A stretch of 12,294 nucleotides of DNA. Origin: Streptococcus oralis. GTDB lineage: Bacteria > Bacillota > Bacilli > Lactobacillales > Streptococcaceae. Location: positions 1 through 12,294 of the forward strand of contig CALHBZ010000276.1 in NCBI GenBank assembly GCA_937930605.1. Direction: 5' to 3'. Both the position numbers and the translations under genes were made by a program. Position 1 is the stretch's first letter; the number at the start of each line of letters is the position of its first letter. Of this stretch, positions 8,522 to 12,294 are shown piece by piece. The notes below the pieces were generated by a model. That model made no database searches and had not been told where the DNA came from. It saw nothing but the letters and a program-made list of their open reading frames with translations.

Positions 8522-10135
8522 TTATTTAGCATAATCTACTGCACGAAGTTCGCGGATCACGGTTACCTTGATATTTCCTGGGTAATCGAGGTTGTTTTCA
8601 ATTTTCTCACGAACTTTGTGAGCCAAGATTGTGACTTTGTCGTCTTTGATTTGTCCTGGATTAACCATGATACGGATCTCACGTCCTGCTTGAAGGGCAA
8701 AGCTATTTTGCACGCCTTCAAAGCCATTGGCGATTTCTTCCAAATCATGGAGACGCTTGATATAGCTTTCAAGAGATTCACTACGAGCACCTGGACGCGC
8801 TGCACTCAAGGCATCTGCTGCAGCAACGATCACTGCAATGACGCTTTCAGCTTCGACATCGCCGTGGTGGCTAGCAATCGTATTCACCACTACTGGGTGT
8901 TCCTTGTACTTACGAGCCAACTCCGTACCAATCTCAACGTGGCTACCTTCAACCTCGCGGTCAATTGCTTTCCCGATGTCGTGAAGGAATCCAGCACGAC
9001 GGGCAAGAGCTGCATTTTCACCAAGTTCACTCGCGATGATACCAGATAACTTAGCAACCTCAATCGAATGACGCAAGACATTTTGTCCATATGAGGTACG
9101 GAACTGCAAACGTCCCATAATCTTCATCAAGTCTGGATGGAGGTTTGGCGCACCAATCTCATAGGCAGCAGCCTCACCGTATTCACGGATTTTATTGTCA
9201 ATCTCTTGACGGTTTTTCTCCACCAACTCCTCGATACGAGCTGGGTGGATACGGCCATCTTTGAGCAACATTTCCATGGTCATACGAGCAATTTCACGAC
9301 GAATCGGATCAAATCCTGACAAGGTTACCACTTCTGGCGTATCGTCGATAATCACATCGACCCCTGTCAAACTTTCAAAGGTACGAATATTGCGTCCTTC
9401 ACGACCGATAATGCGTCCCTTCATGGTATCGTCTGGTAGGTGGACTGTAGAGTTTGTTGACTCTGCCACATAGTCACCAGCGATACGCTGCATAGCCTGA
9501 ACCAAGATATCTTTTGCAATCTTGTCTGAACGTTCCTTGACTTCTTGCTCAGCCTCACGAATGCGACTAGCAATTTCCTTGGTCAAGTTTTCCTCTGTCT
9601 GAGCCAAGATAATATCTCGAGCCTCAGTTTGGGAAAGGGAACCGATACGTTCAAGTTCAGCTTCTTTTTGTCTTTCGACTTCCTCTAATTGCTCTTCACG
9701 TGCATCAAGGTTTTTTGCTCTATCAGAAATACTTTGTTCTTTTTGTTCAAGTGTTTTTTCTTTGTTCGTCAAATTGTCGTCTTTGCGGTCAAGGCTCGCA
9801 GCTCTCTCCGTCAAACGACTTTCAATTTGCTTGAGCTCCTGACGTTCTGACTTAAATTCAGCGTCCACTTCTTCACGGTATTTTCTGGCTTCCTCTTTGG
9901 CCTCCAATAGTGCTTCTTTTTTAAGAGACTTGCTTTCGCTCTTGGCTTCATTTAGCAATAAATCCGCTTCGCGCTCAGCTTGTCCTCGTAAATTAGTTGC
10001 TTCTTGTTCAGCATTTAGAAGCATCAACTCTGCAGCCTCTTGTGATGATTTCATCTTAGCTGAGATGCTGACATATCCAATGACTAAACCAATGATGACG
10101 GCAAAAACAACAATCGCAATGGTCATGATTTCCAT
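8522..10135 (-). CDS. rny: Ribonuclease Y
   Basis: Membrane-anchored endoribonuclease (537 aa) that initiates mRNA decay in Firmicutes. An N-terminal transmembrane helix covers about residues 4-24. A long, highly charged coiled coil (about 28-205) follows, rich in Glu, Lys, Arg, Gln and Ala. The KH RNA-binding domain has [11 protein letters not shown] at 240-250. The HD metal-dependent hydrolase domain has His356, the HD pair His385-Asp386 (in FLHDIGKA, 383-390), HH at 423-424 and Asp441. All these residues are present and the length is that of the family. The ATG at 10135 has GAGGT about 6-7 bases before it and gives the MEIM start known from streptococci. It is a single-gene unit with its own promoter (10184-10212) and terminator (8487-8512). 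Confidence 0.98.
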
Positions 10136-10240: not shown

Positions 10241-11950
10241 TTAGACATATAAATTTCTGAATAGATTATCATATTTAGCAAAATGTTCTAATGGAATATC
10301 ATTAATTGTAATTTCCGTTTTTAACTTTGGAACAAGGCGATTCTTAATAAAATATTGATATTCTTCATTTGATTTCAAAGTATCTATTTCATCAATTTGA
10401 TAATTGTTTTTGGTATTATTATTCAGAATATCATAATAAATTTCAATTAAAACTTTTTCTAACTCGTTAGGTGTATAAAACGAGTAAATTCTCTGATCGG
10501 AATTTTCCAACACACCTAAATTTCTGAATTTTTTATTTGTTTTCCCAACTCTCCACAAATATTGTAGCAACTCAAGAAAATATTGTGCTTTTTTCTGAAA
10601 ACTTATATGCTCATTTTTCTTCATATTCTGCTCAATATTCTGCTCAATCGAATCCTTTTCCATTTTTGTATCGAAATTGTCATAATATTTGGGAAGATAT
10701 TTGGGAAGTTTTAGAATTATTTCAAAATAAAGATAGTAATCTTTAGGTTCTAGAGCAAAAGATTTTAAAAGTGACTCGAGGATATTCTCAGTTATTCCCC
10801 ATCCATTTATACAATCCAAAATATAAATTATCATTTTATCATCTTCGGTTATCATGGATATTTCTTCTAAACTTTTTTGAAATGATCTCAAGCTTAATTT
10901 CTCTACTTTTTTTCTTTTATTCTTATCTTGTACAAGTCTCTCATCAATATCTACATAATAAATTTTATAAATTAGTGATAAAATTTTCCCAAGGTCATCA
11001 TCTCTCAAATTACTCTTTTTCAAAATGTTATCAATAACTTCTTCTGTAGATACCATTCGATTATGATTTAGCTTAAATTTATTATCAATTAGATTTTTCT
11101 TTGTTGATTTTATTTCCTCACTATTTAAAATTACAATAATTTTAAATCTTTTATTCTCAGAAAGATAGTCAATATAACCCAATAAATCATTATAATCTGA
11201 AGGGTTATCTGATGTTTCTGCATATGAAACCCGTTCAAAATCATCAAAAATAATGATAGAATCTCGCTTCATCAAATCCGTTCCAACTGTTTTAAAGAAC
11301 CATTTAAAAACTCCTCCAATAAGTGGAATAAAGTCCAAATTTCCGAGTATGGATTGTTTTTCTATTTCATTGATCAATATTTTCTCGGCTTGCTCTCTTG
11401 TTTTTATCCCAAAGCAGGAAATATAGTAGATTTCTTTCTTTTTATAAATTTGATTTTCAAAAAACGTCTTTATAAAAAATGTTTTCCCACTCCCCCAAGA
11501 ACCATCCAGCCAGAAGACATTATGAATAGAGTCTGGACTATTTAAAAACTCCACCAAATGAGTTTGATAAGGATAGTCATCCAAGTCATATTCTGGAAAT
11601 AGCTCTGGGTCCAGTTTCTTATAACTAACTTTTTTAAAAATTATGTCTAAAAACCAAAATAGTATTGTTGGCATAGTCAGTGCTAACAATATTATTACAC
11701 GATTCTCATACAAAATTGAAATAATATCTTTTAAAAAATTATAATTAGATACAAATTTATAGATAGGTAAAGCAAAGCGTTTAAATTGTTCAATCTCCAG
11801 CGCAAGATACAGTACCCATATACTGGCTATAAATATTTTGTACCATTCAACAATTCTAACATTACTACTCCATGATGGTCTTTTCAATAAATATTTCAAT
11901 AGTTTGAAATTCAGAAAAGTATTAAATATGCTGTTCATTATATTTCTCAT
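10241..11950 (-). CDS. Membrane-anchored KAP-like P-loop NTPase, accessory gene
   Basis: Protein of 569 aa that I cannot assign to a named gene. Two hydrophobic segments (about 39-54 and 85-106) look like transmembrane helices and put the rest in the cytoplasm. A P-loop NTPase domain follows: WLDGSWGSGKTFF (147-159) is Walker A with Lys156, and SIIIFDDFER (231-240) is Walker B with Asp236-Asp237. VILNSEE (273-279) sits where a sensor-like Asn is expected. A third hydrophobic stretch (207-219) lies between the Walker motifs. The DGxWGxGKT and DDFER forms resemble KAP NTPases, whose member PifA of plasmid F excludes phage T7. The C-terminal half (about 300-569) is Lys/Glu/Asn-rich and unrecognised. 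The gene is far more AT-rich than its neighbours (13 G/C in 60 bases at 10921-10980, against 29 in 60 at 9361-9420 in rny), which suggests transfer. A defence role is inference. Confidence 0.78.
   Translation of the reverse strand: MRNIMNSIFNTFLNFKLLKYLLKRPSWSSNVRIVEWYKIFIASIWVLYLALEIEQFKRFALPIYKFVSNYNFLKDIISILYENRVIILLALTMPTILFWFLDIIFKKVSYKKLDPELFPEYDLDDYPYQTHLVEFLNSPDSIHNVFWLDGSWGSGKTFFIKTFFENQIYKKKEIYYISCFGIKTREQAEKILINEIEKQSILGNLDFIPLIGGVFKWFFKTVGTDLMKRDSIIIFDDFERVSYAETSDNPSDYNDLLGYIDYLSENKRFKIIVILNSEEIKSTKKNLIDNKFKLNHNRMVSTEEVIDNILKKSNLRDDDLGKILSLIYKIYYVDIDERLVQDKNKRKKVEKLSLRSFQKSLEEISMITEDDKMIIYILDCINGWGITENILESLLKSFALEPKDYYLYFEIILKLPKYLPKYYDNFDTKMEKDSIEQNIEQNMKKNEHISFQKKAQYFLELLQYLWRVGKTNKKFRNLGVLENSDQRIYSFYTPNELEKVLIEIYYDILNNNTKNNYQIDEIDTLKSNEEYQYFIKNRLVPKLKTEITINDIPLEHFAKYDNLFRNLYV
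10625..10648 (-). repeat. Perfect 12-bp tandem duplication (IEQN x2)
   Basis: ATTGAGCAGAAT on the minus strand occurs twice head to tail, exactly in codon register. It encodes IEQN-IEQN (residues 435-442) of the KAP-like protein. It lies 36 bases from a second perfect 12-bp duplication in the same gene. Confidence 0.9.
10685..10708 (-). repeat. Perfect 12-bp tandem duplication (LPKY x2)
   Basis: CTTCCCAAATAT on the minus strand occurs twice head to tail, in codon register. It encodes LPKY-LPKY (residues 415-422) of the KAP-like protein. The unit differs from the nearby IEQN repeat but has the same 12-bp length. Confidence 0.9.
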
Positions 11951-11970
11951 ATATCGCTCATATATCTCCC
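11946..11970 (-). promoter_or_regulatory. Duplicated start region with a four-codon leader ORF
   Basis: GATATATGAG occurs twice on the minus strand (11966-11957 and 11955-11946), one base apart, so each copy carries an ATG. GGGAG (11970-11966) is the only ribosome-binding site. It lies 4 bases before the upstream ATG (11961) and 15 before the ATG of the KAP-like gene (11950). The upstream ATG reads Met-Ser-Asp-Ile and then stops at a TGA that overlaps the main ATG as ATGA. The main gene may therefore be translated by coupling from this mini-ORF, or from the next in-frame ATG (11938). This is inference from spacing alone. Confidence 0.5.
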
Positions 11971-11990: not shown

Positions 11991-11999
11991 ATTATACCA
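11991..11999 (-). promoter_or_regulatory. Extended -10 promoter of the KAP-like gene
   Basis: TGGTATAAT on the minus strand is a perfect extended -10 element: TG at 11999-11998, one base, then consensus TATAAT at 11996-11991. No clear -35 box stands 16-18 bases upstream, which extended -10 promoters tolerate. Transcription would start near 11984, leaving a leader of about 34 bases. The accessory gene therefore need not rely on yoeB transcription. Confidence 0.7.
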
Positions 12000-12134
12000 C
12001 AAAACAAGAGTTATAAAGCGGATTCAAGGACAAAGATTGTAATCGCTATACTAAATTTCTTTTCTTATTTTTTGTCTTAGGAAGTCTGTCATTTTCCAAA
12101 AAATTTTATCTTCAGTTTGCTAGCTAAATTTTCT

Positions 12135-12164
12135 AAAATAAAAAAGCCTACCTTTCAGTAGACT
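12135..12164 (-). terminator. Intrinsic terminator of yoeB
   Basis: On the minus strand AGTCTAC (12164-12158) pairs with GTAGGCT (12151-12145), seven pairs with one G-U, around a six-base loop. The run T6-A-T4 follows (through 12135). The first base of the stem is the last base of the yoeB stop codon region, so the toxin gene is terminated immediately. Confidence 0.8.
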
Positions 12165-12294
12165 TAGTAGTGATCTTTGAAGGACAAGAAAGCCACGCTA
12201 TCTCCATCTATCATATAAATCAAGCGATTTTCTGCATCAATGCGCCGTGACCAAGCTCCTTGATAGTCATACTTGAGTGGTTCTGGTTTCCCAA
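12164..12294 (-). CDS. yoeB: YoeB-type mRNA interferase toxin, 3' part
   Basis: The last 42 codons and stop of a RelE/YoeB-family toxin; the 5' half is cut off by the window edge. The full family length is about 84 aa. The fragment begins GKPEPLKYDYQGAWSRRI and ends in DHY. Aligned by eye to E. coli YoeB, it keeps Glu46 (KPE), Arg65 (AENR) and the terminal His83-Tyr84, all the catalytic residues, so the toxin looks intact. YoeB cleaves mRNA at the ribosomal A site and is held inactive by the antitoxin YefM, whose gene is normally just upstream and would lie past 12294. The pneumococcal chromosome has a yefM-yoeB pair next to rny, as I recall, which supports the identification. Confidence 0.94.
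   Translation of the reverse strand, partial: GKPEPLKYDYQGAWSRRIDAENRLIYMIDGDSVAFLSFKDHY

Follow-up and report, generated by a model that had tools for sequence, protein, structure and literature searches.

The window analysed here is the whole stretch of 12,294 nucleotides from Streptococcus oralis, and the gene of interest lies in it between rny and yefM-yoeB. As judged from sequence comparison, and with a probability of about 0.6, this gene forms a defence system of recombining streptococci by itself: its product would be a KAP NTPase anchored in the membrane, which carries an exchangeable recognition module and resembles Tmn and PifA in kind. A wider form of this reading, held tentatively and at somewhat below even odds, is that a single streptococcal gene supplies an innate immune receptor, its constant, membrane-anchored KAP NTPase being combined with recognition modules swapped by homologous recombination at one slot to give a repertoire of alleles, the same form occurring at different loci in the mitis group and in a Streptococcus suis clade. 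The first-pass annotation had described a KAP-like NTPase with two N-terminal helices, inserted in a possible defence setting; these points held, while the division into a constant N-terminal part (N-part) and an exchangeable C-terminal module (C-module) had been missed. The features of the window are listed below; the names rny, yoeB, tmcAL-like, def, MerR-like, StkP and Ser-rich adhesin, here and in the text, were assigned from the sequences themselves and are what we take these genes to be.

8522..10135, minus strand: rny (RNase Y), the conserved flank of the hotspot, matched in 284 of 284 genomes of the genus
10241..11950, minus strand: gene of the KAP-family P-loop NTPase (569 aa), an open reading frame with an ATG start and with Pfam and PADLOC profile matches
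10241..10900, minus strand: hypervariable C-terminal module, residues about 351-569, the first part of which overlaps the lid
10245..10261: insert boundary on the rny side, from alignment with cargo-free sites
10766..11629, minus strand: NTPase core and lid, residues about 108-395, with Walker A (G150-T157), Walker B (about 232-240) and R355
11285..11338, minus strand: conserved hydrophobic segment between Walker A and Walker B, residues about 205-222, from column entropy
11633..11857, minus strand: N-terminal hydrophobic hairpin, helices 32-52 and 84-106, from hydropathy and AlphaFold2, predicted to insert into the membrane
11991..12001, minus strand: extended -10 promoter element TGTGGTATAAT, present in 12 of 12 readable upstream regions, the window included
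12131..12140: insert boundary on the yoeB side, from alignment with cargo-free sites
12164..12294, minus strand: 3' end of yoeB, the toxin gene of yefM-yoeB, which runs off the window (from sequence and frame)

The gene is a single AT-rich unit, as first noted, with a GC content of 0.25-0.30 in 500-base windows against 0.386-0.508 in all windows up to position 10250. Its product belongs to the KAP family by HMM search: the Pfam profile KAP_NTPase (PF07693) was matched with an E value of 4.2e-7 and 30 bits, above the gathering cutoff of 20, the best stretch covering residues 127-198. The STAND-like Pfam profile NPHP3_N, a precomputed domain in many homologues, reached 22.4 bits on the window protein, below its cutoff of 24.8; the NACHT profile gave no match up to an E value of 1 in Pfam, and no NCBIfam profile scored above a cutoff. 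The sole defence model matched in PADLOC was the candidate PDC-S49 (E 5.9e-18), with residues 132-294 aligned to profile positions 13-196 of 624, and it is the only model of any kind matched beyond the general P-loop families. The best stretches of the PADLOC and PHROG matches fall within the NTPase region, and the profile searches matched no family with a known non-defence role.

The catalytic motifs are intact, as previously read: an alignment of 111 sequences shows no or almost no variation in Walker A (GSWGSGKT, with K156), Walker B (D236 and D237) and R355. Both clear hydrophobic helices lie N-terminal to Walker A at residue 150. They are supported by hydropathy (19-residue windows above 1.4 starting at 33 and at 75-88) and by the full AlphaFold2 model (mean pLDDT 71.6), in which helices 32-52 and 84-106 appear with modest confidence (pLDDT about 62-70). 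The hydrophobic segment at about 205-222 is strongly conserved (mean column entropy 0.11-0.14), with pLDDT below 50 over residues 201-227. No known fold was found for the C-terminal tail, no catalytic Pfam family matched the tail of the window protein, and no separate effector domain was found in the KAP protein, which leaves the hairpin or the segment at about 205-222 as effector candidates. As noted earlier, the C-terminal half is like no known effector; that remark is still valid but understated the case, since this half is a hypervariable module.

The claim that the gene has its own promoter also agrees with the comparison: a consensus promoter scan listed none upstream of the KAP gene, though the extended -10 element is conserved there in all of the 12 upstream regions read, which include the window (the L028 and L032 loci were missed by the start pattern). 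An 11-bp unit, ATGAGCGATAT (window positions 11951-11961), sits between the ribosome-binding site and the start codon; among the same 12 regions it is found in no copy at nine loci, in one copy in the window and at L026, and in two copies at L027. One copy creates a four-codon leader whose stop overlaps the KAP start, and such a leader possibly tunes KAP expression. At one of the 13 long copies (L030, genome G006) the KAP gene is broken into two frames.

The contrast between the two halves of the protein was seen in a set of 202 sequences, comprising the window, 12 loci and 189 database proteins taken from the best 120 listed of 730 and of 744 hits; the 198 with a tail of at least 120 aa were used for the classes. 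In these 198 sequences, residues 1-300 share 87-100% identity with the window, a similarity that is in part a product of selection because one of the database listings was ranked by N-part score; the contrast is present as well in the 12 genus loci, which were chosen without such ranking. After about residue 340 the tails fall into 5 classes when grouped at 60% identity and into 10 when grouped at 70%; tails of different classes are at best 36-53% identical. Mean column entropy stays at 0.07-0.58 as far as residue 320 and lies at 1.0-2.3 beyond residue 360. The tail classes of the mitis group are still homologous, sharing L, W, G, Y and D positions.

Divergence at the DNA level follows the same division. 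In the 78 pairs formed by 13 intact copies with DNA, codons 1-300 have a median dS of 0.19; for the codons beyond 350 it is 1.02, rising to 1.18 between classes, where dS is near saturation; rny, with a dS of 0.16-0.20, is similar to codons 1-300 of the KAP gene. Sliding identity of the window with L024 and L026 is 88-100% over most of the N-part and about 39-74% over the module, with 92-100% in the rny flank and 75-93% on the yoeB side. Amino-acid change is also faster in the module: nine within-group pairs give a pooled pN/pS of 0.60 for the C-module and 0.19 for the N-part. When identity was followed by sixths, KAP fell from 90-95% to 33-41%, against 90-95% throughout for HsdR (8 copies) and 87-95% throughout for the tmcAL-like protein (75 copies). 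The SIR2 protein (five ORFs, some of them partial, at L090, L100, L101, L107 and L132) went from 96-97% to 66-80% toward the C-terminus, and a control methyltransferase-like cluster (cluster 1) was low in the first sixth (59%), perhaps owing to wrong start calls.

Exchange of the C-module was tested in four pairs that were picked after their dS values had been seen and are given with uncorrected p values: between L022 and L023, synonymous differences number 46.5 at 174 sites of the N-part and 4.3 at 110 sites of the C-module (p 1.5e-7; dS of rny 0.47), L027-L024 (p 0.004) and L025-L023 (p 0.024) point in the same direction, and in L033-L023 the contrast does not reach significance (p 0.12). 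By this measure, the C-module shared by L022 and L023 is much more recent than the remainder of the gene. The tree of the N-part is poorly resolved, two C-groups not being significantly rejected (p 0.276 and 0.0575) and a third being contained without support, so that the argument rests on divergence contrasts and not on topology. On these contrasts, exchange of the C-module as a block is well supported.

The same design occurs in a second clade. Three genomes (G065, G258 and G051; loci L034-L036) encode relatives whose N-part is 41-45% identical, and all three carry the gene at one common locus different from that of the window, where a MerR-like gene precedes it and def follows. Inspection of L034 and L035 by eye shows a common N-part and different ends. 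From a search with L036, the 66 nearest proteins among the best 120 listed of 224 hits were used, the named ones being from S. suis and one from S. iners, and 64 of 67 tails, L036 included, were usable. At 40% identity they fall into 8 groups and at 20% into 5; they are 69-305 aa long and largely unalignable, while the N-parts of the group representatives are 73-98% identical.

The extent of this divergence bears on the best-surviving alternative, namely that the protein serves defence but its C-module varies to escape inhibitors encoded by phages and not to perceive different triggers. Selective inhibition of Tmn alleles by anti-Tmn proteins of Dhillonvirus phages, described in passages of PMC11846954, could produce the same pattern of variation. 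However, the modules of the S. suis clade diverge as wholes, with different lengths and little or no similarity between groups, which would exceed what is usually needed to evade a bound inhibitor, and we regard this explanation as unlikely.

The position of the gene gives further support to a defence role. When aligned with four cargo-free sites that have yoeB, the window matches as far as about 10245-10261 and resumes matching at about 12131-12140, so that the insert comprises little more than the gene and its promoter. The genus search gave a match in 18 of 284 genomes, and each of the 13 long homologues stands immediately upstream of rny and in its orientation; six named loci among them belong to S. 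mitis, S. pseudopneumoniae, S. oralis (two) and Streptococcus sp. (two). The gene is present in 13 of the 97 genomes in which rny reaches 95% identity or more. The first-pass annotation had held that near-universal presence in relatives, or a match to a family with a known non-defence role, would speak against its reading; the gene is confined to a minority of relatives, and the profile searches matched no such family.

The rny interval was examined in 93 of the 97 relatives (13 with and 80 without KAP), and 90 were readable after three had ended at a contig edge. Cargo was defined as ORFs of at least 100 codons on the rny strand, with yefM-yoeB counted apart. Cargo-free intervals numbered 63 of the 90, comprising 37 without any such ORF and 26 with yefM-yoeB only; the others carry KAP (13), HsdR (8), SIR2 (3), a large Ser-rich protein (2) or DUF6994 with a second ORF (1). 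The far flank lay beyond 5 kb at 11 cargo sites. By this comparison of intervals, the KAP gene is a single-gene accessory insertion between rny and yefM-yoeB, as had been supposed. The earlier link to a toxin-antitoxin locus holds in part: yefM-yoeB is present at 10 of 12 fully read KAP sites, but the connection is loose, since it is also found at 26 of 63 cargo-free sites (Fisher p 0.011), and it is an association that implies no dependence. Next to the KAP gene lie rny, yefM-yoeB or a tmcAL-like gene, both in the window and at all of the 13 sites.

Defence genes, that is, HsdR of type I restriction-modification systems and SIR2, occupy 11 of the 14 non-KAP cargo sites, one representative of each having been scored by PADLOC (REase_I and ThsA/SIR2-type) and the others assigned by clustering. 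The predominance of defence cargo supports the original defence reading. It also weighs against the alternative, slightly less probable again than escape from inhibitors, of a non-defence accessory membrane NTPase, whose tail would have been diversified by other partners, such as bacteriocins, conjugative elements or transforming DNA. The Ser-rich proteins, at 2 of the 14 sites, do show that the slot accepts other kinds of cargo, but the match to PDC-S49 as the only model beyond general P-loop families argues in the same direction as the cargo.

The slot and its surroundings vary in other ways too. The eight HsdR loci (L070, L082, L087, L090, L107, L112, L123 and L126) differ in the genes upstream of hsdR, which include PDC-S42 (L070), a KwaB-like gene (L126), two unknown pairs (L082/L087 and L112/L123) and an ORF resembling the tail of the SIR2 protein (L090/L107); they perhaps represent a nested defence slot. 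A second variable slot lies one gene on, with the tmcAL-like gene on one side and the next methyltransferase-like gene on the other (L096, L108, L084 and L075). It contains an OLD/PARIS-like ATPase at L096, a NACHT protein with SNaCT7 at L108, and unknown proteins that are membrane-bound in appearance.

Taking the protein as a defence NTPase with an exchangeable recognition module, a mechanism may be proposed. The hairpin would tether the protein to the cytoplasmic membrane, and the C-module would recognise a phage product and otherwise hold the NTPase off. Upon recognition, ATP would drive assembly, and the hairpin or the segment at about 205-222 might then disturb the membrane, so that the infection is stopped. 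The phages covered would depend on the C-module of an allele, and these modules might be swapped through homologous recombination in the two conserved stretches on either side, the 5' half of the gene and the rny flank. If this is true, a receptor repertoire could be renewed in commensal streptococci with no need for a diversity-generating element. Natural pairs of alleles that are nearly alike save for one module make the role of the module testable by comparing them. The opposite arrangement, with the variable C-module as effector (a polymorphic toxic domain) and the N-terminal half as sensor or regulator, is the least likely of the alternatives: polymorphic toxins likewise join a constant N-part to a polymorphic C-part and no known fold was found for the tail, but the place directly after the variable part, where such toxins have their immunity gene, is taken by rny at 13 of 13 sites, the mitis-group classes are homologous, which swapped unrelated toxins would not be, and the tail of the window protein matches no catalytic family in Pfam.

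Among known systems, PifA of the F plasmid is a KAP-family phage-exclusion protein; the PADLOC matches included no Pif-named model. The resemblance to PDC-S49, found by the PADLOC search that had been recommended, is significant over the NTPase but falls short of the full length and leaves the hairpin and tail of the window protein outside; PDC-S49 is itself only a candidate, and a full-text literature search for its name found no paper. Like NACHT/STAND sensors, the window protein combines a P-loop switch with a variable C-terminal part that follows it, but its above-cutoff match is to KAP and its effector is likely to be the hydrophobic hairpin. In the window itself, a StkP-like PASTA kinase (58-1953) scores as the PADLOC system PD-T4-6 (E 2.7e-199). 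Since PD-T4-6 is reported in 99.1% of S. suis isolates in a passage of PMC12813430, the label probably counts a housekeeping kinase.

Tmn is among the closest known systems. According to passages of PMC11846954, Tmn (TmnA) is a one-gene defence system consisting of a KAP-family NTPase with two transmembrane segments, its mechanism is called unexplored, and its natural alleles differ in the phages that they stop. The window likewise has a single KAP NTPase gene with two predicted transmembrane segments; unlike it, Tmn is not credited with a swappable C-module in those passages. No Tmn-named PADLOC model was matched by the window protein and nine homologues up to an E value of 10, in a search without a Tmn positive control. 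QatA of the qatABCD system is described, in passages of PMC12424860, as a KAP NTPase with an unassigned C-terminal domain, the loss of which protein does not fully disrupt defence; it is encoded with qatB, qatC and qatD, and no neighbours like these occur in the window or at the 13 sites. Sensors based on a KAP NTPase are diversified by some clade 5D retroelements, as stated in a passage of PMC10907252, and are by analogy a precedent for variable KAP sensors reached by another route. By the same kind of analogy, the window protein would work like Tmn, QatA and the clade 5D sensors while being filed under none of them.
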